From the IMG/VR virus record IMGVR_UViG_3300020200_000077, positions 1 to 36,260 of that record: 36,260 bases of DNA. One strand, written 5' to 3'. Positions 5,562 to 25,330 of this stretch are shown here, one piece after another. Source of the stretch: a virus. A model generated the notes under the pieces. That model was not told the origin of the DNA and searched no databases. It was given only the letters and a program-made list of their open reading frames with translations. Positions within the stretch are counted from its first letter, which is position 1; each line of letters starts with the position of its first letter. Position numbers and translations under genes: made by a program.

Positions 5562-5812
5562 GCGCGACGGACTGCCTGACCTGTTTCCACCCTTACGCCG
5601 AGCACACCTCCTACGGCTGCGCGGCGGTCATCCAGCGCTACCGCATGGAGGACTCCTCGCCTGACGAGTGCGTCTGCACTGTGAGGGTGTGCGACGGCTG
5701 CCTCTCACCGAAGCGATGCAGCGCGTCCTGCCCATGCGCTGACTGTCTGAACGAGGCCGACGCCGGCGAGCGTGCCAAGCGCGATGCTTACTACGACGGT
5801 ATCCGAGCGTGA
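5558..5812 (+). CDS. Cys-rich, probably zinc-binding protein
   Basis: This encodes 84 residues with 12 cysteines. They are grouped as CLTCFHPYAEH, CVCTVRVCDGC, then CSASCPCADCL, with His12 and His16 near the first pair. Such spacing suggests two or three small zinc sites. The start overlaps the previous stop (ATGA at 5558-5561), and the stop overlaps the next GTG. The remaining C-terminus is acidic helix. It does not match a named family that I recognise, and it belongs to the coupled early operon controlled by the 5326 promoter. Confidence 0.75.
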   Translation: MSATDCLTCFHPYAEHTSYGCAAVIQRYRMEDSSPDECVCTVRVCDGCLSPKRCSASCPCADCLNEADAGERAKRDAYYDGIRA

Positions 5813-6018
5813 CCTGCGCCGAGTGCGGACGCTCCGTCCGCAAGCTCGAGGTCAGTGGTCGCTGGATGCACGATATTCCGTTCCCCGCTGTGGGCTTCCG
5901 CGAGGCCGTGGTCGCGGGCGGGACCGCAGCGGTCGCTGCCAAGACCGAATGGGGCCGCGAGATCGGCATGTTCATCTTGGCCACGGCACACAACGCACGT
6001 CCAAAGGAGGATGAATGA
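5809..6018 (+). CDS. Small protein with an N-terminal CxxC pair
   Basis: This encodes 69 residues from GTG at 5809, overlapping the previous stop (GTGA). It opens with TCAECGRSVRKLEVSGRWMH, a CxxC zinc-ribbon-like half site with a following His. A Gly/Ala-rich segment (AVVAGGTAAVAAKTEWG) and a hydrophobic MFILATAH stretch follow. It ends inside the AAAGGAGG site and ATGA start of the next gene, so the two are tightly coupled. Function unknown. Confidence 0.65.
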   Translation: MTCAECGRSVRKLEVSGRWMHDIPFPAVGFREAVVAGGTAAVAAKTEWGREIGMFILATAHNARPKEDE

Positions 6019-6569
6019 GCCTTCCTGCGCAAGCATCGTCGTCGTCGAGCGTCGCCCTTTCCCAAGAGATCCAAGACGCGCTGGTGACCGCGGTGGCCTG
6101 CATCGTGGCACCGCAGGACATGGAGGTCACGGTCGCGGCCGTTCCCGCCGAGAGCGTGCTGGCGGTGCTGTGGGCCGCCGATGAGCTGGTGCAACGCGCC
6201 AACGCGCTCAAGAAGGCCCTCGTCATCGAGGCCAGCGTGGCCTGCGAGCAGGGCGAGATCCCGGTAGGAAACCGGAGCATCACCGTAGCCGGCCGGAAGC
6301 ACATCTTCAAACATGACTTCAAGAACGAGTTTGATGACGTGCCGCTACTGATGCAGGAGCTCTCCAACCTCGGTTTCCTGCCCTACACCCTCGGACGCGC
6401 CGTGAGCTACCTGCGCGTGACGAGCCTTCAGGACGCCATCCACGAGATCAGCGACCCGGATGTGCGCGAGCGCGCCTACGCTCTGCTCAAGGAGCACCGC
6501 GTCAGGAAGTTCACCGGGTGGGCGCTGGTACTCCAAGACAACCCGCACCGGAAGGCGCTGGAGCGGTGA
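6015..6569 (+). CDS. Hypothetical early phage protein
   Basis: This encodes 184 residues starting at 6015 after a very good ribosome binding site (AAAGGAGG). An alpha-helical N-terminal half (LSQEIQDALVTAVACIVAP; SVLAVLWAADELVQRANALK) leads to a basic stretch (VGNRSITVAGRKHIFKHDFK) and a helical C-terminus ending in VLQDNPHRKALER. No Walker, nuclease or helix-turn-helix motif is evident. It directly precedes the putative ssDNA-binding protein, so a DNA-replication accessory role is a reasonable guess, no more. I do not recognise a family. Confidence 0.7.
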   Translation: MSLPAQASSSSSVALSQEIQDALVTAVACIVAPQDMEVTVAAVPAESVLAVLWAADELVQRANALKKALVIEASVACEQGEIPVGNRSITVAGRKHIFKHDFKNEFDDVPLLMQELSNLGFLPYTLGRAVSYLRVTSLQDAIHEISDPDVRERAYALLKEHRVRKFTGWALVLQDNPHRKALER

Positions 6570-6572
6570 GCG

Positions 6573-7361
6573 ATGCCGTGGTATCGCTGGATGAGCTACT
6601 TCCGAGGCGAACACACCGATACGAAGTGGCACTTCGCCGTATCACCGCACGATGAACTCGTCAACTGTGGAGTGCGCTCACGAGCAGCGCTCGCGAGCGT
6701 CAAGGACGACCCCAAGCGATCTCGCTGCCTGCGCTGCGTATCAAGACTCGGAGGTGTGCCGGACACGGACGCCCTAGCCCGGCTCCACCGCGACTGGAAG
6801 AAGCGCCGACCGTCTCCGGCAAGTGCCCGAAAGGCGGTGCGCAGAAAGAAGAGGCAACGAGAAGTGTCATTCTCAGAAGCGATCAAGCAGGCCGAGAAGG
6901 AAGGCAAGATCGGCAGCAGCGTGTTCAAGCCGCAGGAGGGCAAGAACACCGTCCGCGTGGTGGCCGGGCCGCTGGCCCACGAGGAGGAGTACGAGGGCAA
7001 GCCGCGCTTCAAGTGGCTCGTCGCCGTGATCGACCGCAAGGACGGCTTGGTCAAGCCGTGGTTCATGCCGCTGTCGATCGCCAAGATGATCCGCGATCTC
7101 CAAGAGTCCGACGACTTCGCCTTCCAGCGCAGCGTCGATGAGCCGCTGCCCTACGACATCGTGCTCTCAGCGAAGAACGCCGGCACGCGCGATGTCGAGT
7201 ACGGCGTGGTCCCGCGCAAGACCGCCCCGCTGACCAGGGAGGAGACCATCGATGTCGCCGATTTCGGCTCGCTCGCCGACTACCAGCAACGCCTGCGCGA
7301 GCGCCGCGGCGAGAAGTTCGATCCCGATGCCGTGTCCCATGACGGCGAGACCGCGGTCTGA
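6573..7361 (+). CDS. Putative ssDNA-binding protein with an N-terminal Zn-binding extension
   Basis: This encodes 262 residues. The last 165 residues begin SFSEAIKQAEKEGKIGSSVF and contain EGKNTVRVVAGPLAHEEEY, a charged basic OB-like region and an acidic tail (DPDAVSHDGETAV), which resembles phage gp32/gp2.5-type single-strand binding proteins. The first 95 residues look like a separate small module with WHFAVSPH, NCG and CLRCVSR, ending in a basic linker (RKAVRRKKRQRE). An in-frame GTG at 6864 could start the second part alone, giving two products or marking an older gene boundary. Either way it would act at replication or recombination. Confidence 0.6.
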   Translation: MPWYRWMSYFRGEHTDTKWHFAVSPHDELVNCGVRSRAALASVKDDPKRSRCLRCVSRLGGVPDTDALARLHRDWKKRRPSPASARKAVRRKKRQREVSFSEAIKQAEKEGKIGSSVFKPQEGKNTVRVVAGPLAHEEEYEGKPRFKWLVAVIDRKDGLVKPWFMPLSIAKMIRDLQESDDFAFQRSVDEPLPYDIVLSAKNAGTRDVEYGVVPRKTAPLTREETIDVADFGSLADYQQRLRERRGEKFDPDAVSHDGETAV

Positions 7362-7477
7362 TGAGCCACCCGAACCCTTGGCGGCTGTTCGGCGCGCTCG
7401 AGCCAGAGTCAAGTGAGAGGTATGGTGTGGTTCAGAAGCTCGCCGATCACAACGAGACCCACAAGAAGCCCGCGTGA
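7361..7477 (+). CDS. 38-residue micro-gene
   Basis: The start ATG overlaps the previous stop (TGATG, 7359-7363). The frame ends with TGA at 7475-7477, which overlaps the GTG of the next gene. The peptide begins MSHPNPWRLFGALEPESSER and continues YGVVQKLADHNETHKKPA. The double overlap makes a real translated unit likely; function unknown. Confidence 0.6.
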   Translation: MSHPNPWRLFGALEPESSERYGVVQKLADHNETHKKPA

Positions 7478-7695
7478 GCAAGGCCGCACCGGCCGTGGAG
7501 GGAGAGCGCGAGGACCGCGAGGCTCGCCAAAAGGAAGGCTCTCCCTCCGCGTATCTTGGACGCAGATGCCCCTTTCCCCGGCCATTCACCGACGGTCTGG
7601 GGATGCGCTGCGAGCGCCCGACGGTCGTCTGGGATGTAAGTGGCCGAGCGGCATGCGGCTACCACTCGCAGGACCTCGCTCGCAGGAAGCCATGA
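7474..7695 (+). CDS. Small Cys-containing protein
   Basis: This encodes 73 residues from GTG at 7474 (GTGA overlap with the previous gene). The first 27 residues are charged and probably disordered. A compact domain follows with RRCPFPRPFTDGLGMRCERP and AACGYHSQDL, giving three Cys and one His that could hold one zinc. The CPFPRPFT stretch is encoded by the third copy of the dispersed repeat (7573-7588). The stop overlaps the next ATG. Function unknown. Confidence 0.65.
   Translation: MSKAAPAVEGEREDREARQKEGSPSAYLGRRCPFPRPFTDGLGMRCERPTVVWDVSGRAACGYHSQDLARRKP
7573..7588 (+). repeat. Dispersed repeat, copy 3
   Basis: TTTCCCCGGCCATTCA is identical to 371-386 and to the reverse complement of 705-720. 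Like copy 1 it lies inside a coding frame and is read as FPRPF. Confidence 0.75.
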
Positions 7696-7982
7696 CACGA
7701 ATGGAGAAAGTATCGCCCACCGACGGCCTCTCGCTAAAGATCGTGCGCGTTGCGCGACAGATCCGCGCGTGTGATGTAGCCGACGCACTCCACGTCGCGC
7801 CTCAGCGCATCTCCGCCATTGAAGGCGCGATCCGCGTTACGCCACGGATTGCAATGCGCTACCTAGAGGCGCTGTCGCGACTCACATCCGAACGGAGAAC
7901 CGCGCATCGCCGCGAGCGCAATCAGAAGCGCATGCCAGTGTCGGGGCGCAGAGCTGTCAGGCAGGCCCGACCCGCTCCCTAG
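7692..7982 (+). CDS. XRE-type helix-turn-helix protein
   Basis: This encodes 96 residues from the ATG at 7692 (ATGA overlap). The core LSLKIVRVARQIRACDVADA, then LHVAPQRISAIEG, then RVTPRIAMRYLEALSRL, has the five-helix pattern of the lambda-repressor/XRE DNA-binding domain. In XRE terms: Q-x3-DVA (helix 2), QRISAIEG (recognition helix), and a final helix that contacts a dimer partner. The last 30 residues are a basic tail. It is a second potential regulator in the early operon, perhaps acting late because it is distal. The target is unknown. Confidence 0.75.
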   Translation: MTRMEKVSPTDGLSLKIVRVARQIRACDVADALHVAPQRISAIEGAIRVTPRIAMRYLEALSRLTSERRTAHRRERNQKRMPVSGRRAVRQARPAP

Positions 7983-12020: not shown

Positions 12021-13025
12021 CTACGCCGCGAGCTTCAGCGCGCGAATGGAGCTGAGCTTGTTGCCGCCGGCGGCAGGGTTACCGAGCGCGGCGTCGATCG
12101 TCTTGCCAGCGCCGTCAGAGGCGCAGCTGACCTTGATCGTGGTCGTGCTGCCGAGAGTGATGATGGCCGCCACCGCGATCGTGCCCGGATAGCCCACCCC
12201 GTGGTCCCCGCCACCGGTTGCGTAGTCCGTGGTGCCATCCCAGAGCCGCGCCTGAGCGCTGTTGGCCGCGACTCCGCTGATCGCCACGTTTGCCATGACG
12301 AGCCACGTTCCGGCGACGAGCGAGACGCTCGGACCGTCGTACCACTGATTCGCGTTCGTCATCGTCACGTCGGCCGCGAGGAACGCCTCGGATGTCGTCG
12401 CGGTGATCGCGTGCGCGTGGCCGTCGCGGGAGTAGATACCATCAGTCCCTGCTGACGCAGACCCACCGAGAGTGCTCGCACCGGGCCCAGTCCCCGATGT
12501 AGGGCCCGACGCGCTCGCCGGCATGCCGTGCCGGTGGTCGCGACGGGCCGCGGTCGTGGCTGATCCCGCCGCAGCCGCATCGCTGTATGCCTGGGTCACG
12601 GGCGCCGTCGCGTCGTAGCCGGTCATGAAGTTGGTGCCGCCGTCGAGGCTCAGTCCTGACGACGACAGGCGCGCGCGCTCGGCGCCGCCCGTACCGAGGC
12701 CGAGCACGTTGGCGGAGACGCCGTACAGGCCGGTGTCCTTGTCGCCCTCGAGCGCGACACCGGGCGTCCCGACCGCTCCATCGTTCGCGTACACGCGGCC
12801 GTCCGATGAGAGTGCCGCCTGGACCGTCCCGGCCGAGTTCTTGATCTGGAAGATCTCGGTACCCGCTGCGGGGTTGGAGGAGGGCTGGAAGATCAGAGCG
12901 CCGGCGGCGTTGTAGATCAGGGTGACCGATTCACCCGATCCGGTCACGCCCTTGAGGATGTTGTAGAACTGCGCTACATCGGCAGCGAGTATGCGGTCGC
13001 CTGCCGACGGGGCATAAAGTGCTAT
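12021..13025 (-). CDS. Tail fibre / receptor-binding protein, apparent AUA start
   Basis: This is 334 residues if read from the ATA at 13023-13025; the first conventional start (GTG at 12947) would discard a fibre-like N-terminus (APSAGDRILAADVAQFYNIL). Upstream of the ATA is CGGAGG with a 6-base gap, and an in-frame TGA lies further upstream with no ATG, GTG, TTG or CTG between it and the GTG. The body has fibre hallmarks: SSDGRVYANDGAVG, GDKDTGLYGVS, two DHRHG/DGHAHA His-rich turns (RRDHRHGMP, YSRDGHAHAIT) and a Gly/Ser/Ala/Thr-rich beta C-terminus. It should form a trimeric appendage that contacts the host surface. It lies late in the structural operon, as expected. Confidence 0.75.
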   Translation of the reverse strand: MALYAPSAGDRILAADVAQFYNILKGVTGSGESVTLIYNAAGALIFQPSSNPAAGTEIFQIKNSAGTVQAALSSDGRVYANDGAVGTPGVALEGDKDTGLYGVSANVLGLGTGGAERARLSSSGLSLDGGTNFMTGYDATAPVTQAYSDAAAAGSATTAARRDHRHGMPASASGPTSGTGPGASTLGGSASAGTDGIYSRDGHAHAITATTSEAFLAADVTMTNANQWYDGPSVSLVAGTWLVMANVAISGVAANSAQARLWDGTTDYATGGGDHGVGYPGTIAVAAIITLGSTTTIKVSCASDGAGKTIDAALGNPAAGGNKLSSIRALKLAA

Positions 13026-13443: not shown

Positions 13444-15363
13444 CTACGAGTAGTACGCATAGTTGGTGTCCGACCCGTTGCTGTAGACCGCGCGGTCGTC
13501 GAACACCTGGGTCGCCGAGTTGTAGCGAAACACCCCTGCGCCCGACCGCCATTCGAGCAGGCTGACGGGCAGGAGGAACACCGGGTCGGCCTGGTCCACG
13601 GAGTCGCCCTTGCGAATGTCCTGGGTCTGGGGGATGAGCTCACCGAGATCTTCCACGAACACCGAGAAGGTGCGGCCGTTCTTGTCGATGAAGTTCACCG
13701 GGGCCACCGTCGAGCGGGCCGACTCGAGACGGGTGAGCTGGCTGAGTTCGGTGGCGCGGATGTTGGCGTCGGCGGTGCGCGAGGCGACGGCCTTGAAGAT
13801 CCAGCGCCGCTTGCGCTCGAAGCGCAGCTGGAAGTGCCGCGAGAATGGCAGGATACGCGGCGTCTGGGTGGAGTCATCAGTGGCCAGACGGATGTGCAGC
13901 GAGATGCGCCGGCCCTGGGTCGATGTCGGGAAGAACACGGTCGAGAGGCCGTTGGCGGTGATGCGCTTGAGCGTCGTCTCGGAGCCGCCGTCGAGGGCAT
14001 AGACGACATCGACGTAGCGGGACGCGGTGAGGTTCTCGCACTCGAACTTCAGCGAGAGGTACGCCTTGTTCACGTCGTCGAACACGTCGGACTCGACCGG
14101 GAGGTAGATGTCGCCGAGCGCCGCGTAGCGGCAGCCTGAGTCCACATATGGGTTCTGGGCGTCGTTGGGAAGGATGAAGTAGTAGATCTCAGTGCCCTGC
14201 GAGTACCAGATGCGCGGGTTGGAGCCCGATGACTTGAAGCGTCCGATGGCGGTGAGCGCGGTCGTCCCGGTCATGACCACCTGATGCCAGCCGAGCGCGA
14301 TGCCGGGGTTGTAGTCGTAGGCGATGATGTAGTAGTTCCCTGATTGCGCGGCGAGGATGCCCCACAGGAAGTCCACGTCGGGCCAGAGATCGACGATGCT
14401 GCCGCGGACCTCGTTCACGCTCGTCCGCGTGATGCCCGGCATGAGCACCTCGGCCGAGAAGGTGGGCTTGCCCTCGGTGACGATCTGGTCCTCGGCGTAG
14501 CGCCACAGCGACGGGCCGACCGGGAGGTAGACCTTGCCGCGGCTGGGCTTGCCGCCGCGCGTGTTGGCCGCGTCGATGCGCATGGCCAACTCGGGCAGGT
14601 GGTTGATGACCGAGGTGCCGTCGTAGTCGAAGAAGCCCTCGGGCTTGCCGATGTGCGGCCGGCCGCCGTAGTCGACGAGCGAGACGGCGGCGCGGTTGGA
14701 GTCCCCGATGGAGACGGCCGAGGTCCATGTCGTGAAGTCGGTCGAGGACGAGAGCTGGTTGGATGAGAATAGCCGCCAGAGCGTGTTGCCGACGCTGGCC
14801 ATGAGTTGGGCCTTGATGACGGCGGGCTGGTCCCACACTCCAGCGGTGGTGCGCCGCCAGTAATCGACCGACCCGCCCGCGCCGACGACGAGATAGGACC
14901 CGTAGACGGTCGCCGCGCCCTTGATCGCCGCGGCGCTCGCGCCCATGTCCTTGTCGGTGTCCCATGTCGATGTGCCGCTGTTGAACTTGAAGACGTAGCG
15001 CACCGAGATGCCGTACCACGCGCTGTCGAACTCGATGAACTGGACGATGCTCTGAGCGTTCGCGGGCGTGGTGAAGGCCGTCGATGCCACCAGCGGGCCG
15101 AGGATGAGCTGGTTCTTGATGCGCGCGTCGATGTTCTGGGCGTAGTGGTAGCGGGCCTGCGAGTCGAGCTCCATGTTGCCGATGCCGTATCCGTTGTGCC
15201 ACGAGTCCTGAGCGGCGATCGACTCGTTCGAGCGGTCGGCCTGCGTCACCGACCCCTGACGGATCTGGCTGGCCAGCGGGGCCACTTCAGTGACCGTGTA
15301 GTCCCGCACGACGTAGGGGTAGCCGTCGAGGACGATCTTGTCGGCCTGGCCCTTGGGGGCCAT
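13444..15363 (-). CDS. Large structural protein (tail tube/nozzle-like, putative)
   Basis: This encodes 639 residues; the ATG at 15363 directly follows the previous TAG. Beta-rich throughout, with many aromatic residues and evenly spaced Trp/Tyr strands (VDYWRRTTAGVWDQP; TLWRLFSSNQLSSSTDFTTW; IWYSQGTEIYYFILP), as in beta-propeller-containing tail or nozzle proteins. Residues 45-75 (SIAAQDSWHNGYGIGNMELD) look like a docking segment. The C-terminal part has FERKRRWIFKAVASR and ends SNGSDTNYAYYS. Its place after the connector-like gene and before the fibre matches podovirus nozzle or stopper genes, but the assignment rests on position and composition. Confidence 0.55.
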   Translation of the reverse strand: MAPKGQADKIVLDGYPYVVRDYTVTEVAPLASQIRQGSVTQADRSNESIAAQDSWHNGYGIGNMELDSQARYHYAQNIDARIKNQLILGPLVASTAFTTPANAQSIVQFIEFDSAWYGISVRYVFKFNSGTSTWDTDKDMGASAAAIKGAATVYGSYLVVGAGGSVDYWRRTTAGVWDQPAVIKAQLMASVGNTLWRLFSSNQLSSSTDFTTWTSAVSIGDSNRAAVSLVDYGGRPHIGKPEGFFDYDGTSVINHLPELAMRIDAANTRGGKPSRGKVYLPVGPSLWRYAEDQIVTEGKPTFSAEVLMPGITRTSVNEVRGSIVDLWPDVDFLWGILAAQSGNYYIIAYDYNPGIALGWHQVVMTGTTALTAIGRFKSSGSNPRIWYSQGTEIYYFILPNDAQNPYVDSGCRYAALGDIYLPVESDVFDDVNKAYLSLKFECENLTASRYVDVVYALDGGSETTLKRITANGLSTVFFPTSTQGRRISLHIRLATDDSTQTPRILPFSRHFQLRFERKRRWIFKAVASRTADANIRATELSQLTRLESARSTVAPVNFIDKNGRTFSVFVEDLGELIPQTQDIRKGDSVDQADPVFLLPVSLLEWRSGAGVFRYNSATQVFDDRAVYSNGSDTNYAYYS

Positions 15364-16263
15364 CTAGCGGACGATGCCGATGCGCACGGCGAATGTCGGG
15401 CGGCGCAGCGGGCGGTTGGGCTTCTCGGGCATGAGTCGCTGGCGCAACCGTGCGGCGTCTTCCGCCCACCTGTCCGCCTGACGCTGCGCGTCGTCGCGCT
15501 GGCCAGCCGGGGCACGGCTGGCCTCGGTACGCCACAGGTTCGCCACCGCGTCGGTGTAGAGCCACTCGACCTCGGGCGGATCGAGGTGGATGGGGTCGGT
15601 GGTGGTGGCCATCTGCGGCAGCGCGGCGGCGAAGATAAAGCGCAGATCGCGGTTCGACTCAGGGTTGAAGCGCAGCTGGACGGTATTGGTACGAACGCCG
15701 CTGGCACCCTCGGCCGGGCTGGAGGAGAACAGCTCCCACACGGAAGGATCGAGTCGGAGGAAGGGCCACGTCGTTTGGCTGGCATCGGTGTAGACCTCGT
15801 ACTCGAGCGCGATGAGGCCGCGGTTGCCGATGTCCGGGCCGGTGGGCACGGCGTACTGGAGCGTGTCGCGCGTCGTCGTCACGGTCTTGCGCACCGTGTC
15901 GCCGAAGTCCGGCCATGCGGTGTTGAGGCTGCGGTTGATGGCCCGCTCGTAATCGACCGGGGTGAAGCGGCGGTAAAGCCGGTAACTGTCACCCGATGCC
16001 ACCGTCGAGGGGAAGGAGCCGTAGAAGGTCGCCTGCGCCGTGGCCGAGACGAAGTCCGAGACGCGTCGGCGCTGCCCGACGTTCCCTGCGGTGCCGCCGG
16101 TCATCTCGACCACGCACTCGTTCCAGTAGTCGTCGGAGGCCTGGAGGTCGGCGCCGTTGGTGTCGATGAGGGTGGTGGTCGATCCGCCGGTCGCGGTGCC
16201 CGTCAGGAACTCACCCGCCCTGCGGGCGACCTCGGCCACGGCGTTCGAGAAAGTTACGGACAT
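15364..16263 (-). CDS. Head-tail connector/adaptor-like structural protein
   Basis: This encodes 299 residues starting MSVTFSNAVAEVARRAGEFL. After an N-terminal helix comes a beta-rich region (TTTLIDTNGADLQASDDYWN; SYRLYRRFTPVDYERAINRS), then LNTAWPDFG, a pattern common in head-completion proteins, and a C-terminal helical section (DDAQRQADRWAEDAARLRQR). Its ATG overlaps the stop of the aminotransferase gene by 10 bases, so virion and sugar genes are coupled here. By order it would normally follow the capsid gene; the sugar cassette sits in between. Confidence 0.6.
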   Translation of the reverse strand: MSVTFSNAVAEVARRAGEFLTGTATGGSTTTLIDTNGADLQASDDYWNECVVEMTGGTAGNVGQRRRVSDFVSATAQATFYGSFPSTVASGDSYRLYRRFTPVDYERAINRSLNTAWPDFGDTVRKTVTTTRDTLQYAVPTGPDIGNRGLIALEYEVYTDASQTTWPFLRLDPSVWELFSSSPAEGASGVRTNTVQLRFNPESNRDLRFIFAAALPQMATTTDPIHLDPPEVEWLYTDAVANLWRTEASRAPAGQRDDAQRQADRWAEDAARLRQRLMPEKPNRPLRRPTFAVRIGIVR

Positions 16264-17243
16264 ATCTGTACAGCGCAGATGATAGCGAAGACATCCTCAT
16301 CCGAGAGCGACCAGTGCGACGGCAGCCACAGCGCGTGCTCGTAGAAGCGCTCGGCGCCGAGGAACGGACGCTCATCGGCCGGGAGCAGGCTCCACACCGG
16401 GGCGTAGGCGGGCTGACGGTGAAGAGGCTTCCAGTATCGGCGGCAGACGAAGCCAGCTACGGCGACCCGTCCCGCGACCGCATCGGGATCGTCCACGATG
16501 ATGTCGGTCCAGAGCGGCTGCTCGTCCCTTCGGAATGGGACGACCGGAAGGTGCTCGGCGTAGAGCGCGTGGATGGCCCGCATCCGCACCAGACGCTCAT
16601 CGAGCTTCTCCAGCTGCGCGAGGCCGACGGCCGCCTGGAGGTCGGTGAAGCGCAGGTTGAAGCCGAGCGAGCGATGGTCGTCCGATCCGCGCTCGGTGCG
16701 TCCGTGGTCCTTGTATCTCCGCATCCGCTTCGCGAGGAGGTCGTCGTCGGTCGCCACCGCACCGCCCTGTCCGGTGGTGATGACCTTGTTCGGCGAGAAG
16801 GAGTAGCAGGCGGCGTAGCCCTCCGGTCTCTTGGGGAAGGCCTCGCAGGCATCCTCCACGGCCATCTCGCCGACAGAGGCATGACGACCGGAGATGTGGA
16901 CGGGGATCTCGGGATGGTCAACCTCGCCGCTGTGATGGAGCAGCCCGCGCTCGTCCACGTCGGAGAGGATTGGTCGTAGCCCCGCGAGCGTAGCGGCGTG
17001 GGCAGTGGCGATGAAGGTGAGCGAAGGGATGACGACCGGAACGTCGGCGCCGAAGAGGCAGCGCAGCGCGAGGAGGATGGCCGCCGTCCCCGAGGTGGTA
17101 CAGATGACATGCCTGACCCCGATGCGTTCCGCGAGCGCCCGCTCGAAGCGCTCGGTGAGCGGCCCCTCGTTCGGGAACGACAGAGCCTCCTCCAGATAGC
17201 GCATCTCGCGGCCGGTCATCTCGGGAGTCCAGAACGGCCTCAT
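16254..17243 (-). CDS. DegT/DnrJ/EryC1-type sugar aminotransferase
   Basis: This PLP-dependent enzyme of 329 residues would place an amino group on a nucleotide-linked keto-sugar. Visible motifs are TTSGTAAI (49-56), which binds the cofactor phosphate, VEDACEAF (129-136) with the Asp that contacts the pyridine nitrogen, and SFSPNKVITTGQGGAV with Lys153 as the Schiff-base lysine. Family members run about 360-400 residues, so this one is short, with a reduced C-terminal domain. The ATG at 17243 overlaps the C-methyltransferase stop (ATGA). It closes the sugar cassette and runs into the connector gene. Confidence 0.88.
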   Translation of the reverse strand: MRPFWTPEMTGREMRYLEEALSFPNEGPLTERFERALAERIGVRHVICTTSGTAAILLALRCLFGADVPVVIPSLTFIATAHAATLAGLRPILSDVDERGLLHHSGEVDHPEIPVHISGRHASVGEMAVEDACEAFPKRPEGYAACYSFSPNKVITTGQGGAVATDDDLLAKRMRRYKDHGRTERGSDDHRSLGFNLRFTDLQAAVGLAQLEKLDERLVRMRAIHALYAEHLPVVPFRRDEQPLWTDIIVDDPDAVAGRVAVAGFVCRRYWKPLHRQPAYAPVWSLLPADERPFLGAERFYEHALWLPSHWSLSDEDVFAIICAVQICP

Positions 17244-18400
17244 ACGAGACGCGGCTCCGGCAGCGGAACGATGAACTGGCCACGGAAGCCGCGCCTTCGC
17301 AGGTTCGCTCTGACCTCATCGGCGATGTGCCACGACAGCACCAGCGCCATCTGACCGGCGCATTCCGCTTCGTCCACCACCGGGATGAGCGTTCCGGGCA
17401 TGCAGCGGCCGATCTTGGGCGACCCTGCCACCTCCCCCACCGCTACGAGAGGAACGCCCGTGTACTGGATGAGCGTGGCCGCACGCGATGGCGCACCCAC
17501 GCCCCATATCGGAACGTCCAGCGTGTCGATGTGCGAGAGCAGTCGGGCACGCGATCGCTCCACGCGCCGCTGGAGCGAGGCGCGCATCTCCTCGGTGTCC
17601 CACATCCGCTCCATCGCCAGCATCGTTCGTACTGCGGGCGTCACGGCGCGGTCGCCCTGCCGTGCTGCCCAGACGCGGATAGAGCCGCCGTGGGTCGGGA
17701 TGCGCTGCACGTCGTACACCTCAAGACCGGCGAGCCCGAGCAGATGCGTAAGGCTGGTGAGCGAGTAGTAGCGCAGGTGCTCGTGGTAGACGGTGTCGTA
17801 CTGGAGATCGATGAGGATGCTCTCCCAGTAGTGCGACTCAGAGAGGAACGTGCCTTTGGGCGCGAGCAGTCCAGTGATGCGGTGGACGACGGCCACCGGA
17901 TCGGGGATGTGGGCGAACACGTTGCATGCGGTGATGAGGTCGGGCGCCCACGGCACCCGGGCCGCCGAGTCGTTGTCGAAGAAAGCCATGTCCGTCGGGA
18001 TGCCACGCTGCTGCGCCTCAACGGTCGCGCCAGTGGGCTCAATGCCCCACACCTTCGCGCCCTGCTCTTGGAACGCGGCTAGGAGCGTGCCGTCGTTGGA
18101 GCCGATGTCCAGTACGCACGTCGCCGTCACGCTCTTGGCGAGCGCGGTGAAGTGCTCACGAAGCGCCCGCGTGGTGCCGGTGCGGTAGGGGTAGTCGGGC
18201 GGAAAGACCATGCGCGGGTCGGGGACGACCGAGAGCTGCACGAGAGCGCAGACACGGCAGCGCAGGACCTCGGTAGCTAGATGCATCTGCGGCTCGCGCG
18301 AGCCGATGAGCGGCATGACGTTGGCCGGGGCAAGGTATCCGAGGTCCAGAACGGGCTCGAGGTCGGACGATCCGCATGCCTGGCAGCTAGGCGGTGACAC
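17240..18400 (-). CDS. Sugar C-methyltransferase-like protein
   Basis: This encodes 386 residues from GTG at 18400. It has the three-part layout of TylC3/NovU-type sugar methyltransferases: an N-terminal zinc site (Cys6, Cys9, Cys48, Cys51 in CQACG and CRVC), a central SAM-binding domain with VLDIGSNDGTLLAAF (96-110) and YHEHLRYYS (205-213), and a C-terminal Rossmann-like domain (DVPIWGVGAPSRAATLIQY). Known members methylate C3 of dTDP-keto-sugars; others of the fold act differently, so substrate and product are inferred. It overlaps the epimerase gene by 14 bases. Confidence 0.85.
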   Translation of the reverse strand: MSPPSCQACGSSDLEPVLDLGYLAPANVMPLIGSREPQMHLATEVLRCRVCALVQLSVVPDPRMVFPPDYPYRTGTTRALREHFTALAKSVTATCVLDIGSNDGTLLAAFQEQGAKVWGIEPTGATVEAQQRGIPTDMAFFDNDSAARVPWAPDLITACNVFAHIPDPVAVVHRITGLLAPKGTFLSESHYWESILIDLQYDTVYHEHLRYYSLTSLTHLLGLAGLEVYDVQRIPTHGGSIRVWAARQGDRAVTPAVRTMLAMERMWDTEEMRASLQRRVERSRARLLSHIDTLDVPIWGVGAPSRAATLIQYTGVPLVAVGEVAGSPKIGRCMPGTLIPVVDEAECAGQMALVLSWHIADEVRANLRRRGFRGQFIVPLPEPRLV

Positions 18401-19304
18401 GTTCCGTCATCCGGCGGATGCCCTGGCGCAGACCGACCTCCGGTGCCCAGCCCAGAGCACGGAGCTTGGAGTTGTCAGCGGAGCGGCGCTGGATGTCCTC
18501 GGGCGGAGGCGGCATGTCCTCGGTGACGAAGCGGGCGCTCACGCCCGTCTCCTCGCAGACGATCTTCGCGAGGTCGGCAATGCTGTACTCGCTGCCGCCG
18601 CCGATGTTGTACGGCTGGAGATGCGTCCCGCGTTCGGCGACGGTCACCAGACCCTCCACCACATCGCCGATCCAGGTGAAGTCCCGCGTCTGAGTGCCCG
18701 ATCCGAAGATGGGGAAGACACCCGTGGTCTTCGCCTGCTCGGCCTTGCGGAAGAACTCGGGGATGACGTGGGGCGAGAGCGGCGAGTCGCCGGGACCGTA
18801 GACGTTGAAGAGACGAGCGATGCGCACCTGGAAGCCGTACTGCCGCGAGTACCAGCGGGTCATCTCCTCGCCGATCTGCTTGGAGAGGCCGTAGGAGGTG
18901 TCGCAGATGCCGGTGTCCTCCTCGACGTGCGGCACCTTCGCGCCGGGGAAGTCGTAGACGCAGGACGACGAGACGAAGAAGTAGTAGGGCACCCCCGCGC
19001 GGGCGACCGCCTCGAGCACGCTGCCGGTGATGCGCAGGTTGTCACGCAGCAGCGTGGCCGGGTCGCGGTAGAGGTCACGGGCGCCGGCCACGCGAGCGGC
19101 AAGGTCGTACACGCGGTCGAAGCCCTCAAGACTCGGCTCGTTCTCACACAGATCTATGCGCGTGATCGCCACGGCCGAGCCTTTCAGGTTCTGGGGGACG
19201 CCACGCGAGTAGTTGTCAAAGACGTAGATCTCGTGATCCCCTGCTAGCCGCCTGACGAGAGCGGAGCCGACGAAGCCCGCCCCGCCCATGATCGCGATCT
19301 TCAT
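18387..19304 (-). CDS. NAD-dependent sugar epimerase/dehydratase
   Basis: This encodes 305 residues of the extended short-chain dehydrogenase family. GGAGFVGS (7-14) binds NAD(P), SSS (112-114) and Tyr138-x3-Lys142 (TSYGLSKQ) form the catalytic set, and RLFNVYGPGDSP follows as in UDP-glucose epimerases and dTDP-glucose dehydratase relatives. It should convert a nucleotide-linked sugar (epimerisation or 4,6-dehydration), giving the keto-sugar that the next two enzymes use. The ATG overlaps the formyltransferase stop. I cannot tell epimerase from dehydratase here. Confidence 0.9.
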   Translation of the reverse strand: MKIAIMGGAGFVGSALVRRLAGDHEIYVFDNYSRGVPQNLKGSAVAITRIDLCENEPSLEGFDRVYDLAARVAGARDLYRDPATLLRDNLRITGSVLEAVARAGVPYYFFVSSSCVYDFPGAKVPHVEEDTGICDTSYGLSKQIGEEMTRWYSRQYGFQVRIARLFNVYGPGDSPLSPHVIPEFFRKAEQAKTTGVFPIFGSGTQTRDFTWIGDVVEGLVTVAERGTHLQPYNIGGGSEYSIADLAKIVCEETGVSARFVTEDMPPPPEDIQRRSADNSKLRALGWAPEVGLRQGIRRMTERVTA

Positions 19305-19864
19305 GGTGTCCTCCTCATCGGTACAGCGGTGAATGATGGATGCTGCTCGAACTCCGAGCGAGTTACGGACGGCCTAGCCCACACGTCGCCCGAATAGGGC
19401 ATCGAGGCGCCGTCCGCGATCAGCGTCACCTGGTCGCAGAACAGCTCCAGACACTCCTCAAGCGACCGGTCCCACAGGTCGCCGTAGCCCCAGCGCGGGT
19501 CGATGCGGAAGTGGGCCACGCGGACGATGGGACCGTGGTCGAACCGCTCGTCCATGACGTGGCAGGTGACGCCATGCCACGTCCGCTCGTCGTGGAGAGC
19601 CAGCGAGGCTGATCCGACGCCGGGGTACTCGGGCGGCGCAGGGTGGAAGTTCAGCGCGTGGTCCCCGAAGCGTGCCAGCACGCTGTTCGGGATCTTGGGA
19701 GCGGAGAGGAAGTTCAGCAGCCAGTCGGCGTCTGGGACCGCTCTGAGCAGATCGTGTCGTCCATGCCGCTGAACATCTGCGAGATCAAGGATTGACCGGG
19801 CCGCTGCGTGCGCCCGCGTGACGTATGGCTCATAGCCCCCAAGGAGCAGGACTGCGGTCACCAT
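19301..19864 (-). CDS. Formyltransferase (putative sugar N-formyltransferase)
   Basis: This encodes 187 residues matching the N-terminal catalytic domain of the methionyl-tRNA formyltransferase fold. LNFHPAPPEYPGVGSASLAL gives Asn72 and His74, and VMDERFDHGPIV gives Asp109, the standard Asn-His-Asp triad that transfers a formyl group from N10-formyltetrahydrofolate to an amine. The tRNA-binding C-terminal domain is absent, as in enzymes that formylate amino sugars. Beside an aminotransferase and an epimerase it most likely makes an N-formylamino sugar; the sugar is unknown. Confidence 0.82.
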   Translation of the reverse strand: MVTAVLLLGGYEPYVTRAHAAARSILDLADVQRHGRHDLLRAVPDADWLLNFLSAPKIPNSVLARFGDHALNFHPAPPEYPGVGSASLALHDERTWHGVTCHVMDERFDHGPIVRVAHFRIDPRWGYGDLWDRSLEECLELFCDQVTLIADGASMPYSGDVWARPSVTRSEFEQHPSFTAVPMRRTP

Positions 19865-20505
19865 GACGCTTTGCGCCGCTCGTACACCGCCATCTCCTCA
19901 CCGTAGCGGAGCCCCTTACGGTGGTAGGTCTCATCGAACTGCGCGAGGCCGCGCGAATGGTGCCGGTGGTCGAGGAGCAGGCGGCTGGGCAGCCTGGTCA
20001 CGCCGTCCTTGCGCAGCCGCTCGCGCAGTTCAGTATCACCGAAGAGGCCCCAGTAGTCATCCGAGTAGAGGCCGCGTGCCTCCACGAACGCTCGGTTGAA
20101 GACCCACTCGATGGCGGTGTTGCCGAGGCTGTCGTCCACCAGCATCGCCGCAGGCTCAGAGTGGCCGGCGAACGCTTCCAGCGTGAGGGTGTCCCAGTGC
20201 GCCGGGGCCATGAGGTCGTCCTCGATGGGAAAGAGGATGTCGCCCGTGGCCTTCTTGGCCGCAAGGTTGTAGGCGCGGAAGCAGCCCTTCGGCTTCCGCA
20301 CCACGACGCGCCGGAGGTCTGCGGTCGCTTCCAGCGTCTCCGCATCGTCGCCATCGACGGCGAAGATGTGCTCGATCTGCTCGGGGTGGTCGGCGGTGCC
20401 GAGCCACTGTGCCCGAACGATGAGCGCCTGCTGTGGTCGGCCACGGGTGGCATGGAGGAGGGAGATCAGCCGTCGCACTGAGGGGCATTGGGGGCTATGA
20501 GCCAT
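19858..20505 (-). CDS. GT-A-type glycosyltransferase
   Basis: This is 215 residues from the ATG at 20505; an internal GTG near 20478 is possible. RRLISLLHATRGRPQQALIV is the typical first strand and helix of family-2 transferases, FAVDGDDAETL follows, and ILFPIEDDLMAPAHWDTL holds the DXD-like metal site (Glu95-Asp96-Asp97). The domain is small for the family and probably needs only the core. No transmembrane segment, so it is cytoplasmic. It overlaps a small, apparently frame-damaged frame on one side and the formyltransferase on the other. It may transfer the cassette's sugar to a phage protein or carrier. Confidence 0.8.
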   Translation of the reverse strand: MAHSPQCPSVRRLISLLHATRGRPQQALIVRAQWLGTADHPEQIEHIFAVDGDDAETLEATADLRRVVVRKPKGCFRAYNLAAKKATGDILFPIEDDLMAPAHWDTLTLEAFAGHSEPAAMLVDDSLGNTAIEWVFNRAFVEARGLYSDDYWGLFGDTELRERLRKDGVTRLPSRLLLDHRHHSRGLAQFDETYHRKGLRYGEEMAVYERRKASW

Positions 20506-20714
20506 ACGTCCTCCTCGGCCCAGGTCCAGATATCGGCGTCAGGCTTCAGGGACCGAGCCTCGGGCGAACTTCGGCGGTCGCACGACACGACCACCTCCAT
20601 CCCCATCTCCCGCGCCTTCGGCCACACCCTCGCTCGTTTCCACGGCAGGTGCGGGTCGCGTCGGGGATGTAGTGATCGGTGACGTGGACGGCGCGCGCCG
20701 GGCAGCCTCTTCAT
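20466..20714 (-). pseudogene. Small gene with two compensating frame disruptions (putative)
   Basis: One minus-strand frame begins MKRLP at 20714 and ends with the protein-like stretch WKRARVWPKAREMGMEVVVS, SLKPDADIWTWAEEDVWLIA and PNAPQCDG (stop at 20466). Between these, the natural-looking run ARAVHVTDHYIPD lies in the next frame. Removing one C from the CCC run near 20701 and adding one C after GACGC near 20663 would join everything into one 82-residue protein. The two single-base problems suggest sequencing error or recent decay. It overlaps the end of the 1068-residue protein and the start of the GT-A gene. Function unknown, but it sits among glycosyltransferases. Confidence 0.45.
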
Positions 20715-23700
20715 CCGCGATGATCTGAAGCCAGCCGTCCCTGATACGTTCCCAGGTCTGCTCACGCGCCCACACCCTTCCTCGCTCGCGCATCCTCTCG
20801 CGCTCGGCCTTGGGCATCTTCCAGAAGCGCCGGAGCGCGGCCCACACGTCGTCGGTCTGGATGCCGGTCGCGTTCGTCTCCGAGAGAGCGCCGTGCGAGT
20901 GCGTGATGGGAACGCATCCGGCGGCCTGCGCCTCGACGACCATGATGCAGTATGTCTCGTGGAACAGGCTGCCCTCGGGCAGGACGCTCTGGTACACGAG
21001 CACGTCGCTCCGCAGGTACTCGCGCGCGAGGGTGGTCTGGTCCACCCGTCCCCGGACCTCGATGCCCGGCTGCTGGAGGAGCTTGTCGATGCGCTCCATC
21101 GCCTGCGGCCGCACCTTGCGCGCGAGGTCCGATCCGTAGAAGACCGAGAGCGTGGCCTTGGGGAACTCGGCCCTGATCTTGGGCCATTCGCGCAGGATGG
21201 GCTCGAGGCCGCGGTCGGGAGAGGAGGCCCAGATGAGGTGATAGGGCTCGCGTTTCACCTTCTGATCGAACCGCGACGGCACGATGCCGTTGCCGCTCTT
21301 GACGATGCGCGCACCCGGATAGACCTCGCGCAGGTGCGCCATCTGCCAGTCCGAGAGCGCGATGATGGTCGTCCCGGCCAGACGCTCGGAGGACACGGCG
21401 CCGATGTCGGTGTCGTGCATCCACAGGAAGCGGTGCTCCGCGAACTCGGCCATCTGGGGCATCGAGAGCGCCCGCCAGGAGACATAGAGCTTCATGGGGA
21501 AGGGCCGGAACTGCTTGGTCGGGCGGTAGAGCACCCCGTCCCACAGCCCGTCGGCCTCGGCGTACACCGTCACGCGGTAGCCCGACCGGGTGAGCTGGCG
21601 GCCCATGTGGATGACCGCCGTCTCCGAGCCGCCGATGCCCCCGCGCCACAGCGAGTCGGGAGACCAGCGCTGCCCGGTGTCGAAGCAGTGGATGACCGCC
21701 GGGGGTCTGGAGGTCATGTCTGGTACGGGACCGGCAACGTACTGCGCGACGATGTGACCGCGCGAGCCGTCGTCCCTCTGGAGGGTGTGGAGGTCGATCA
21801 TCTCGCCCGCTAGATGGCCCCCAAGGGCCACGCTGACAAGGCGCTGCGCCAGGAGCACGCCGAGCTCGCGCTGGCTCCACTGGCGGAGCGTGGCGCCGTC
21901 CGGCTGCTGCGGCCCTTCGTAGTCGCCTTGGGGGACGATGACGATGACACGCTGGGCCATCGCCTCGGCCGCCTTCAGGATGGCCTCGGGGTCGCCCGAG
22001 CCGAGAGCGCCGACGACCACGGCATCGAACGGACCGAGAGCGCCGATCTCGTGCTCGCTGCCGTCGGTGAGCTTCACCGAGCCGAGAGCGTCCGGCGGAC
22101 TCCAGTGGAACATGAACGGCGAGACGGGAGTGAAGTGCGGCACACGCCCGACCCCATCGACCACGGTGGTCCGCACGAGCTTGGCCTTGATCCCGAGGAG
22201 GTTGGCCGCCTTGACACGGGATGGGTCGTGGTCGATCCCCACCACCTCGACGCCCTGCTTCGCGAGATGAACGGCCCACTGCGCGGACACGCCGATCATG
22301 AGCACGCGGCGAGACCGCACATGGAGACCCAGCCACCATCCGGCCGGGTCGGTCTCCGGGGTCACCGCGGCGGGCTTCTCGATCGGAGCGCCCATGCGTG
22401 CCATCCGGCGCTCCTCCTCGCTCATCGGCAGACGCCGCGCGAGACCAGCCATCGCCTTGGCCGCTTCGGGGAACTGCTCCACCGCTCCCGCCGGCAGCGC
22501 TTCGAGCACGGCCTTGGCCTTCATCGGCTCGTTGATGCCGACCATGTGCGCCGCGAGCTGTAGACCCCTCTCCACCGCCTCGAGCCGCCGGATGCCCCAT
22601 GCCAGATGCTCACGCTCCTTCTGGAGCTTCGGGTCGGGCACCGCCGCGATCGCCGCGTCGTATGCGCGAAGCGCGGCGGCGTTATCGCCGAGGTTGAAGT
22701 AGACGGAGGCGAGCAGGGCGTAGGGGTCGTAGCGATAGACCTTCATGTTCACGAACAGCACGCTCGGAGGCAGCGTGCCCTTGTGGATGCGCTCGATGCA
22801 CTCCTCGGCCCAGTACCTTGCGCGCTCCCAGTCGCCCATGCTGGCGTGGGTGTAGGCGAGGCCGAGATAGTGGTCGGGATACGCGGGCCGCAGCTCCATC
22901 GCCCGCAGGTCGGCGTTGAGCGCGCTCTTCATGAGGTTCATCTCGCGGTAGGCGATGGCGGTGTAGATGAGCGCGATCCAGCGCTCGTCGTCCCAGCCCG
23001 ACATGGTGACGTACTGCTCGTAGCACTTAGCCGCCTCGGCGTAGTCCTTGACCGAGAAGTAGGCGTTGCCGAGGTAGTACCAGGTGCGCACGTTCTTGGG
23101 GTCGCGCGCGATCTCTTTACGCAGGATGCGCAGGTTGCGTTCGATGGCCCCCGCCGCGCCGCGACCATCGGTGTGGTGGAACCACGAGACGCCCGCGGCC
23201 TTGACCCACGGCTGGGTCGGCTCCATGTAGATGTCCTCGTGGCAGGCGTTCCGCCAGCGCCACGGCAAGCCGACACGGAAGAAGCGGATGCGGTCGTGCT
23301 CCGTCGTGCGGTTGCCGTGCTCGTCGCGCCCGTAGTCGTAGTGGGCCGTGACCATGCTCACATGATCCGGCAGCGAGGCGAGGAAGGCGGGCACGTCGGG
23401 GCTGGGCGGATGTCCCATGTCGCGGCCCTGCGGGTCCACGGCGACGAGCGGCCCCGTCTGCTTGATCTCGTCGTCCCAGTCGAGCCAGAACGCCCAATCG
23501 GCCCGCTTCGGGATACGGTCGAGCGTCAGGTTGCGGGCGTAGGAGAAGTCGTCGCGCCAGGTGAACGGGAACACCCGCCCGCGCTTGCCGAGGCGCTTGC
23601 GCAGACGCTCCACCGTGTCGGGTGGGCTCTTGCGGTCCACCGCCAGCACGAAGTCGGTCGCGCCGATGGCCTCGCAGGACGCGAGCATGCGCTCGGTCTG

Positions 23701-23745
23701 CTCTGGGTCCCTCTCCCAGAGGATCGCCGTGGCGACGAGACGCAC
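20539..23745 (-). CDS. Giant multidomain glycosyltransferase (GT-A + TPR + Rossmann + GT-B)
   Basis: This encodes 1068 residues from GTG at 23745, overlapping the previous TAG. Residues 1-200 form a GT-A domain (LVATAILWERDPEQTERML; WLDWDDE at 87-93 as metal site; CHEDIY at 168-173). Residues 205-435 are TPR-like helices (WYYLGNAYFSVKDYAEAAKC). Residues 475-680 look like a SAM/NAD Rossmann domain (RRVLMIGVSAQWAVHL; VVGIDHD; FDAVVVGALG). Residues 683-1010 are a GT-B enzyme: GGIGGSETAV (702-711), IALSDWQMAHL, NGIVPSRFD, and the donor-site FHETYCIMVVEAQAAG with Glu930 and Glu938. The last 50 residues are Pro/Ser/Gly-rich and may lie beyond the natural end. It could add two sugars in turn to one acceptor. 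Confidence 0.8.
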   Translation of the reverse strand: MRLVATAILWERDPEQTERMLASCEAIGATDFVLAVDRKSPPDTVERLRKRLGKRGRVFPFTWRDDFSYARNLTLDRIPKRADWAFWLDWDDEIKQTGPLVAVDPQGRDMGHPPSPDVPAFLASLPDHVSMVTAHYDYGRDEHGNRTTEHDRIRFFRVGLPWRWRNACHEDIYMEPTQPWVKAAGVSWFHHTDGRGAAGAIERNLRILRKEIARDPKNVRTWYYLGNAYFSVKDYAEAAKCYEQYVTMSGWDDERWIALIYTAIAYREMNLMKSALNADLRAMELRPAYPDHYLGLAYTHASMGDWERARYWAEECIERIHKGTLPPSVLFVNMKVYRYDPYALLASVYFNLGDNAAALRAYDAAIAAVPDPKLQKEREHLAWGIRRLEAVERGLQLAAHMVGINEPMKAKAVLEALPAGAVEQFPEAAKAMAGLARRLPMSEEERRMARMGAPIEKPAAVTPETDPAGWWLGLHVRSRRVLMIGVSAQWAVHLAKQGVEVVGIDHDPSRVKAANLLGIKAKLVRTTVVDGVGRVPHFTPVSPFMFHWSPPDALGSVKLTDGSEHEIGALGPFDAVVVGALGSGDPEAILKAAEAMAQRVIVIVPQGDYEGPQQPDGATLRQWSQRELGVLLAQRLVSVALGGHLAGEMIDLHTLQRDDGSRGHIVAQYVAGPVPDMTSRPPAVIHCFDTGQRWSPDSLWRGGIGGSETAVIHMGRQLTRSGYRVTVYAEADGLWDGVLYRPTKQFRPFPMKLYVSWRALSMPQMAEFAEHRFLWMHDTDIGAVSSERLAGTTIIALSDWQMAHLREVYPGARIVKSGNGIVPSRFDQKVKREPYHLIWASSPDRGLEPILREWPKIRAEFPKATLSVFYGSDLARKVRPQAMERIDKLLQQPGIEVRGRVDQTTLAREYLRSDVLVYQSVLPEGSLFHETYCIMVVEAQAAGCVPITHSHGALSETNATGIQTDDVWAALRRFWKMPKAERERMRERGRVWAREQTWERIRDGWLQIIADEEAARRAPSTSPITTSPTRPAPAVETSEGVAEGAGDGDGGGRVVRPPKFARGSVPEA

Positions 23746-24263
23746 TACTTCTGTTCGATGCCCGGTGTGGAGCCTGCTCCCGGTCGCGGGTCGAGCCCGC
23801 CGAAGTTCATGCGATGCACGCGACTGCGGAAGCCCGCGTAGGCCTGCTTCTCATCCGGCCTCAGCGGACCGAAGTAGGAGTCGTTGATCCCGCGCGCGCG
23901 ACGGACCTTGTCGTACTCACCCTTGAAGATGGCGAAGGTGGTGATCTCCTCGCCCGCCACGAGGTCCACGGTGAGGCCGTTCCATGTGAGCGGCGCGCTG
24001 AAGATGGGCGTGAAGGTGACCTCGCGGAACTCCTGGTCACCTGCGGCCTGCCGCTCGCGCAGGTGGTTCCACGTCCACGCCATCTTGGTCGCACCGGGAG
24101 TGCCGGGGTTCAGGATGGTGCCCGGCTGGACGCCGACCGGGGCGGGCGGAGCCGGGAGGGCAGCCAACTCTGCGATGAGTGCGGCGCGCTTGGCGCGCAG
24201 CTCCTCCTCGCTCATCTCCTTGGTCTCGCTCAGGGTCGTCGTCACTTCCTCTGCTTTCGCCAT
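23745..24263 (-). CDS. Hypothetical late protein following the capsid gene
   Basis: This is 172 residues from the ATG at 24263, just after GGAGAGAGAC. The first 55 residues are a charged helix with coiled-coil features (ETKEMSEEELRAKRAALIAE) leading to a Pro/Gly-rich turn (PAPPAPVGVQPGTILNPGTP). A beta-rich core follows (EFREVTFTPIFSAPLTWNGL, VDLVAGEEITTFAIFKGEYD) with a basic helix and a Gly/Pro tail. It lies one hairpin downstream of the capsid gene, so a decoration or minor head protein is possible. It is also the first gene of the block that carries the sugar enzymes, and could be their acceptor. No family recognised. Confidence 0.6.
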   Translation of the reverse strand: MAKAEEVTTTLSETKEMSEEELRAKRAALIAELAALPAPPAPVGVQPGTILNPGTPGATKMAWTWNHLRERQAAGDQEFREVTFTPIFSAPLTWNGLTVDLVAGEEITTFAIFKGEYDKVRRARGINDSYFGPLRPDEKQAYAGFRSRVHRMNFGGLDPRPGAGSTPGIEQK

Positions 24264-24310: not shown

Positions 24311-24349
24311 TGTCCCCCACGTTACTCACTAGTACCTACGCCGCTAGTC

Positions 24350-25330
24350 TCATGCGGCGTTCTTCCTGCTTGTCACATGCTCGAGCGAGACGATGCGGTT
24401 CTGGTCGAGGATGACCGCGGTGTGCGCGATCTTCCAGCCGAGCGACCAGTACTGGTTCAGCGGGTCGGTGGCTCCAGCCGAACCCTTCGGGTGGTAGATG
24501 ATCTCGCTGTTATCGACCTCGAGCGTCGCGTGGGCGTAGGCCTCTTCGCCGATGAGCAGGGACTGGTACACGTCGGCGCCGGACTGGCCGGCCGACGAAC
24601 GGATCGTGCCATTGCTCGTCTCGAAGAAGCGGAAGCCGACGAGGTCCCCCAGTTGACCGGTCTGGAGCGGGTTCTCGCCGCCAGCCGCCGCGCCGCGGTT
24701 GACCGCGTACTGGAAGACGTTGGTGACGTTCGTGTCTCCGAGCATGTCGCGCGTGGAGTCGGGGTGGATGATCGCGGCGAACTTTCCCGCCGCCGGTCCT
24801 TTGCGGATCGGCTTCACGTCGTTCCGCTTGAGGGTGGCCATCGCCTCGCGGAGTTCCGCGAAGGTCAGGTACATGCCGCTTGAAAGACCGGTGCGGGCGG
24901 TCGCCGTGCTCGCGTACTGCGTGTTGGTGCCGGCGTTGATGACGTTGCGCGTGATCACGTCGCGGGTGTCCTGAAGGTCGTCACCGAACGCCTGCGTGAA
25001 GCCCGTGACGATGGGGTCGATGGACTGCCAATCGAGGATGTCAGACCCGAGCATGTAGCCGCCGTACTGACTGATCGTCAGCGTGACGGCCTCGACCGTG
25101 GGGTTGAGCGCGGTCGGTGGAGTGCCCTCCACAAGTGCCGTGGTCTGAGCACCCGGACGTGCGAAGCGACGCAGCTGGGCGTTGATGCCCTGCCCGCGCG
25201 GGATGCGCACCGGCATCCCGAACTCGTTGTGCCAGAAGTCCGGCACACGGCGGGTCAGAAGCTGCATCTCGTAGAAGGTCCGGGCCTCGTTGGTCATACC
25301 AGCGGCCGTGAGCAGCTGTTGGGTTGCCAC
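24350..25330 (-). CDS. Major capsid protein (N4-gp56 family)
   Basis: This encodes 326 residues. The sequence has the features of the N4-gp56 capsid family: an N-terminal helix that ends in FYEMQLLTRRVPDFWHNEFG, the ARPGAQTTALVEGTPPTAL strand, TISQYGGYMLGSDILDWQSI, AAIIHPDSTRDMLGDTNVTN, LVGFRFFETSNGTI and IGEEAYAHATLEVDNSEIIY, matching an HK97-like fold. It forms the icosahedral shell. It follows the scaffold-like gene, as expected, and a hairpin after it may raise its level relative to genes further on. Of the virion proteins here this is one of the most secure calls. It is the likely bulk target if the virion is glycosylated. Confidence 0.9.
   Translation of the reverse strand: MATQQLLTAAGMTNEARTFYEMQLLTRRVPDFWHNEFGMPVRIPRGQGINAQLRRFARPGAQTTALVEGTPPTALNPTVEAVTLTISQYGGYMLGSDILDWQSIDPIVTGFTQAFGDDLQDTRDVITRNVINAGTNTQYASTATARTGLSSGMYLTFAELREAMATLKRNDVKPIRKGPAAGKFAAIIHPDSTRDMLGDTNVTNVFQYAVNRGAAAGGENPLQTGQLGDLVGFRFFETSNGTIRSSAGQSGADVYQSLLIGEEAYAHATLEVDNSEIIYHPKGSAGATDPLNQYWSLGWKIAHTAVILDQNRIVSLEHVTSRKNAA

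Follow-up and report, generated by a model that had tools for sequence, protein, structure and literature searches.

A predicted amino-sugar glycosylation cassette between the capsid and neck genes of an environmental phage, and its counterparts in other viral loci

A cassette of six genes for nucleotide-sugar synthesis and glycosyl transfer lies within the virion operon of the IMG/VR record IMGVR_UViG_3300020200_000077, the whole of which was analysed here as a single window of 36,260 bases (G+C 66%); a nucleotide search of the phage collection found nothing closely related to it. The cassette would most plausibly act as a late-expressed, cytoplasmic protein-glycosylation module, a reading to which we assign a probability of roughly two in three. 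Cassettes in the same capsid-connector slot were observed in viral loci with three other types of capsid, which suggests that many phages may coat their own particles with sugar.

Late genes of the window are encoded on the minus strand in the order large terminase, portal-position protein, 475-aa protein, 1353-aa internal-virion-type protein, scaffold-position protein, major capsid protein, 194/172-aa protein, the six-gene cassette, 299-aa protein and 639-aa protein (Table 1). The cassette occupies exactly 16254-23745, flanked by the capsid gene plus one small gene on one side and by the neck gene on the other, and the original prediction was exact in its coordinates, common strand and overlaps. 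From the capsid side to the neck side the gene spacings are -1, 33, -7, -4, -14, -4 and -10 bp; the fusion gene starts one base inside the 194/172-aa gene and the aminotransferase gene overlaps the 299-aa gene by 10 bases, and these overlaps at both ends join the cassette to the virion genes. There was no promoter-like or terminator-like site inside the cassette, nor was there a signal of acquisition in base composition, GC content and codon usage being close to those of the rest of the operon, with the formyltransferase gene the most deviant of the six.

Table 1. Features of the virion operon in and around the cassette (positions in the window)
Feature	Coordinates	Strand	Basis
639-aa protein, position of phage stabilisation/tail-closure protein	13444..15363	-	Position and weak profile match
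299-aa neck protein at the adaptor position, bordering the cassette downstream	15364..16263	-	Homolog in locus L034
DegT/DnrJ/EryC1 sugar aminotransferase, 329 aa, perosamine-synthase-like	16254..17243	-	PF01041 4.6e-55, residues 23-325
Sugar 3-C-methyltransferase, 386 aa, three-domain	17240..18400	-	PF08421+PF13489+PF08484
SDR sugar epimerase(/reductase), GDP-fucose-synthase/GDP-mannose-3,5-epimerase type, 305 aa	18387..19304	-	Epimerase 1.5e-47
N-formyltransferase, 187 aa	19301..19864	-	PF00551 (Formyl_trans_N) 3.4e-11
Small GT2-like protein, 215 aa	19858..20505	-	PF00535 7e-6; phrog_14945 glycosyltransferase 2.5e-8
Glycosyltransferase fusion, 1068 aa	20539..23745	-	Pfam; GT2 profile versus PDB; homolog in locus L173
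172-aa protein separating capsid gene from cassette; candidate for decoration protein and for glycan acceptor	23745..24263	-	Position only
Major capsid protein of the N4-gp56 family, a candidate glycan acceptor	24350..25330	-	TIGR04387 3.4e-44; phrog_1357

The genes bordering the cassette were less readily assigned. A good Shine-Dalgarno sequence precedes the 172-aa start at 24263, an alternative upstream start at 24329 would give 194 aa, and the 172-aa product had no family match in Pfam, TIGR-type or PHROG profile searches. The border gene on the other side had been called connector-like; its 10-base overlap was confirmed, but the adaptor or connector role is putative and assigned by position only, the comparison with SU10-type adaptors giving a weak profile match (hhalign probability 25%, 55 columns) and the predicted structure being too poor (pLDDT 44) to resolve a fold. 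The 639-aa protein resembled stabilisation proteins weakly in profile comparison (87%, 79 columns). Elsewhere, the window contains a fibre-like gene at 12021-12947, downstream of the cassette, genes for two DNA methyltransferases and, at 4638-5263, two adjoining minus-strand ORFs with a near-identical stretch, KCWWESRRSYRTRREALDAFARHARTHG, representing a local duplication.

Pfam family matches of the cassette proteins were far beyond chance, and the aminotransferase, C-methyltransferase and formyltransferase of the original prediction were all retained. The DegT protein has a full-length family match, its closest PDB match is perosamine synthetase (2e-32), and alignment to that enzyme places the PLP lysine at the NK in SFSPNKVITTGQGG. 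The C-methyltransferase (Methyltransf_14 1.8e-24, Pfam) gave full-length PDB matches to D-mycarose 3-C-methyltransferase (2e-50) and TcaB9 (3e-48), with the zinc-binding, SAM and C-terminal domains in the order of the TylC3/TcaB9 type and with AHIP, YHEHL and YPY, which we take to be the catalytic motifs, aligned. The third enzyme had been described as an epimerase/dehydratase, of which the epimerase part stood: its best PDB match is GDP-mannose 3,5-epimerase (9e-35), GDP-fucose synthase was also matched, and SSSCVY and HVIP align with SSCIY and HVIP of E. coli Fcl, retaining the Cys/His pair that presumably catalyses C3/C5 epimerisation. Assignment as an NDP-hexose 4,6-dehydratase was rejected, SSSCVY standing where E. 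coli Gmd has STSELY, and in the alignment with Fcl and Gmd the T/S-x-E/D dehydratase signature (TSE) was absent from the active site. There is no 4,6-dehydratase elsewhere in the cassette either, and the 4-keto sugar must therefore come from the host, so that the complete dedicated pathway originally proposed was not borne out; sister cassettes in loci L106-L108 and L111 do carry a gene of the GDP-mannose 4,6-dehydratase type.

In the formyltransferase, alignment showed the N72/H74/D109 triad to be kept, and the structural model (pLDDT 70) has the formyltransferase superfamily fold, with matches including Rv3404c, PseJ and WbkC. Foldseek scores were 2e-9 to GART and 3e-8 to the tuberculosis sugar N-formyltransferase Rv3404c, sugar and purine formyltransferases scoring alike by both sequence and fold; the neighbouring genes suggest an NDP-amino sugar as the substrate, and in principle the enzyme could act on something other than the cassette sugar. 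A tblastn search found no homologs in phages, and an alignment scan returned only two contigs, both known already. From these enzyme families the product of the cassette is likely to approximate NDP-4-formamido-4,6-dideoxy-3-C-methylhexose, which we presume to resemble kansosamine, the 3-C-methyl-4-amino-4,6-dideoxymannose of mycobacterial lipids. The original prediction, a cassette within the virion operon for an amino sugar that is N-formylated and C-methylated, is supported.

The two glycosyltransferase genes originally proposed are indeed two genes, but one of them is a multi-domain fusion with two glycosyltransferase domains and a methyltransferase-like insert. Its domains are GT2 (about 1-195), TPR (about 200-400), a methyltransferase-like Rossmann insert (about 470-670) and GT4/GT-B (about 685-1030), the insert being read from the sequence and the others being Pfam matches. 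A profile of the GT2 part, built from the window protein and 17 relatives, had GmaR (6.7e-37) and SunS (3.8e-25) as its best PDB matches, the next kind being TagF, a polysaccharide enzyme, at 2e-7, and the DxDD motif was invariant in both alignments of fusion relatives. The fusion therefore carries a GT2 domain of the GmaR/SunS subgroup followed by TPR, and in this it resembles protein-glycosylating enzymes, a likeness that leaves the choice of acceptor free. The 215-aa GT2-like protein had no PDB match.

To place the cassette among other viruses, IMG/VR was scanned by alignment, single-protein patterns having given nothing, with the fusion alone (80 viral loci) and separately with the aminotransferase (80 loci). 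A capsid gene was present within 3 kb upstream, usually at 300-600 bases, in 47 of the 80 fusion-chosen loci, and a packaging, capsid or neck gene was at the expected place in 57, counts that are approximate given that related contigs are not independent and that the profiles were built within the analysis. The placement of such cassettes beside the capsid gene, for which counterparts in related phages had been sought, recurs in these loci. Capsid or neck markers were absent from the remaining 23 loci, some of which were short and some from very large contigs. The gene following the cassette in fusion-chosen loci was often SU10_adaptor-like, and the profiles that identified these capsids were all built on SU10_MCP proteins, L188 with its N4-gp56 capsid being the exception; there, at 5801-7874, the capsid gene seemingly lies in three pieces, with intervening ORFs that may reflect introns or homing endonucleases, and a 1081-aa glycosyltransferase fusion follows. 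Of the 80 viral loci, 65 have the two-domain fusion, compared with none of 74 bacterial loci retrieved with the same kind of patterns, in which the GT2-TPR part was present with no match to a phage head or neck profile; a crude motif detected no flagellin beside these bacterial homologs.

At least 20 of the 80 aminotransferase-chosen loci either belong to the capsid/neck module or adjoin terminase. Sugar enzymes stand between capsid and adaptor in the N4-gp56 phages L096, L098-L100, L106-L108, L111, L136 and L155, another aminotransferase-chosen locus, L103, has a phrog_267 capsid, and L131 (IMG/VR 3300033429_000001) encodes an HK97-family capsid (PF05065), glycosyltransferases, DegT and formyltransferase, and then a gp6-like connector. 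In all, phages with any of four capsid families have sugar genes in the capsid-connector slot, and with both DegT and formyltransferase in L131, such a pair in the slot is not confined to the window phage. Sugar genes occupied other parts of the head module in two podovirus-like genomes, L174 (MW202497.1, 35151-39470) and L003 (MW202713.1, 36117-40650), with either glycosyltransferase genes between terminase and portal or DegT, methyltransferase and glycosyltransferase genes just upstream of terminase. Two further viral contigs, L139 and L151, have long sugar clusters with DegT, formyltransferase, several SDRs and C-methyltransferase and with no capsid or neck markers nearby. Three GenBank entries from cyanobacteria that are labelled 'phage', each 42,586 bases long (ON073792.1, which is L004, PP438404.1 and PP438434.1), match the same aminotransferase; ON073792.1 is annotated with genes for exopolysaccharide, replication and ParA/ParB but with none for capsid, terminase or tail, and it looks like a plasmid.

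Among 47 loci chosen by likeness to the window's capsid, a sugar gene could be recognised within the following 8 kb in only one, and L034, a relative by its neck genes, has the 299-aa homolog after the capsid gene and two small genes, without a cassette. As most N4-gp56 relatives lack sugar genes and L034 lacks the cassette, it is considered an accessory island.

In the scheme that we infer from these families, both in its order of reactions and in its nucleotide, host enzymes would supply a GDP- or dTDP-linked 4-keto-6-deoxyhexose, the C-methyltransferase would methylate C3, adjacent to the ketone, and the Fcl/GME-like SDR would epimerise C3/C5 or make a second deoxysugar, the latter if it also reduces the ketone as Fcl does. 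DegT would then aminate C4 and the formyltransferase would cap the amine, giving roughly an N-formyl kansosamine/perosamine-like nucleotide sugar. The TPR region of the fusion may bind a newly made virion protein while its GT2-TPR part adds the first sugar, after which the GT4 domain and the 215-aa glycosyltransferase would lengthen the glycan and the methyltransferase-like insert may O-methylate it. Position in the operon is evidence of co-expression, not of target; the likeliest acceptors are the major capsid protein and the 172-aa protein beside it. Transfer to a receptor-binding protein, such as a tail fibre or spike, is an improbable alternative: the fibre-like gene lies downstream and such a modification could adjust adsorption, but across several capsid types the cassettes adjoin the capsid gene, not fibre genes.

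The cassette might instead remodel the host surface (lipopolysaccharide, capsule or teichoic acid), for instance to block superinfection or aid release. DegT enzymes, 3-C-methyltransferases and N-formyl amino sugars are typically associated with the O-antigen and surface loci of bacteria. The O-polysaccharide of Brucella, for example, is described in the abstract of PMC5981137 as N-formyl-perosamine. Despite this resemblance, we regard host-surface modification as unlikely, the cassette lying in a late virion operon without Wzx/Wzy, priming transferase or other membrane protein, and the protein-glycosyltransferase-like GT2 domain belonging to a fusion tied to capsid genes. Across 22 contiguous capsid-sugar-adaptor loci, a strongly hydrophobic segment was found in one of 162 intervening genes, with no sign of a flippase, polymerase or membrane priming transferase, which makes a surface polysaccharide built from cassette genes alone unlikely. 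Transfer of the sugar onto the DNA of the phage, by analogy with phages whose bases are hypermodified, is less probable still: the window encodes two DNA methyltransferases and DNA-modifying phage glycosyltransferases exist (Pyle 2024, as cited in PMC12619734), but among the window proteins scanned there was no base hydroxylase or other hypermodification enzyme, and the cassette combines a late position with TPR and a GmaR/SunS-like glycosyltransferase. Glycosylation of a virion protein, as originally predicted, remains the favoured reading on the strength of that domain, the same-slot recurrence and the lack of flippase, polymerase and membrane enzymes, with both acceptor and glycan kept as predictions.

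A broader proposition, to which we give about even odds, is that tailed phages with at least four capsid types use the capsid-connector slot for exchangeable glycosylation islands, many led by a virus-specific GmaR/SunS-like GT2-TPR-GT4 fusion, and thereby put custom sugars, here a formylated 3-C-methyl amino sugar, on the particle surface. If so, virion glycosylation would be far commoner in environmental phages than the few isolate cases imply, the sugars being made or completed by the phages themselves, and this would bear on how particles encounter hosts and the immune system. The fusion in its slot would then provide a sequence handle for choosing phages for glycoproteomics, as well as a source of new cytoplasmic protein glycosyltransferases.

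Several known systems share parts of this arrangement. SunS, the sublancin S-glycosyltransferase of the SPbeta prophage, has a related GT2 domain and acts on a peptide, but its substrate is a bacteriocin and it is a single glycosyltransferase. GmaR, the Listeria flagellin O-GlcNAc transferase, has GT2 then TPR, as in the N-terminal part of the fusion, with the TPR as the proposed flagellin-recognition element (PMC9638930); its C-terminal part is an antirepressor domain, whereas the phage fusion continues with the methyltransferase-like insert and GT4. FlmG of Caulobacter, a TPR and glycosyltransferase enzyme, belongs to a cytoplasmic pathway by which flagellins receive pseudaminic acid (PMC7591256), and so resembles the cytoplasmic protein O-glycosylation fed by an unusual-sugar pathway proposed for the phage, but differs in its cellular flagellin target, its GT-B fold and its sugar. 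Among phages, the mycobacteriophages Che8 and Rita carry glycans on capsid and tail-tube subunits (Freeman 2023, as cited in PMC11256854 and PMC12619734), involving phage-encoded glycosyltransferases as here, but the glycosyltransferase genes of Maravista lie near the genome 3' end according to PMC11256854, compared with amino-sugar genes between capsid and neck genes in the window phage. Two of the loci recovered here offer further parallels. In the Manatee Spring podovirus ctKR88 (MW202524, L173), a homologous GT2-TPR-GT4 fusion directly follows the capsid gene and one small gene, in the order scaffold, capsid, small gene, fusion, glycosyltransferases, methyltransferases and stabilisation protein, but the capsid is of the SU10 type, the fusion is without the methyltransferase insert, and no DegT or formyltransferase was recognised. 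L131 shares DegT, formyltransferase and glycosyltransferases between its capsid gene and head-tail connector, with an HK97-family capsid and other glycosyltransferases. A literature search found no paper on phage DegT/glycosyltransferase genes with capsid genes, which is weak evidence of novelty. Phage virion glycosylation is already known; what appears to be new, within the material searched, is the recurrence of the capsid-connector slot, a fusion of the GmaR/SunS kind seen only among the viral loci, and a gene set for a formylated and C-methylated amino sugar.
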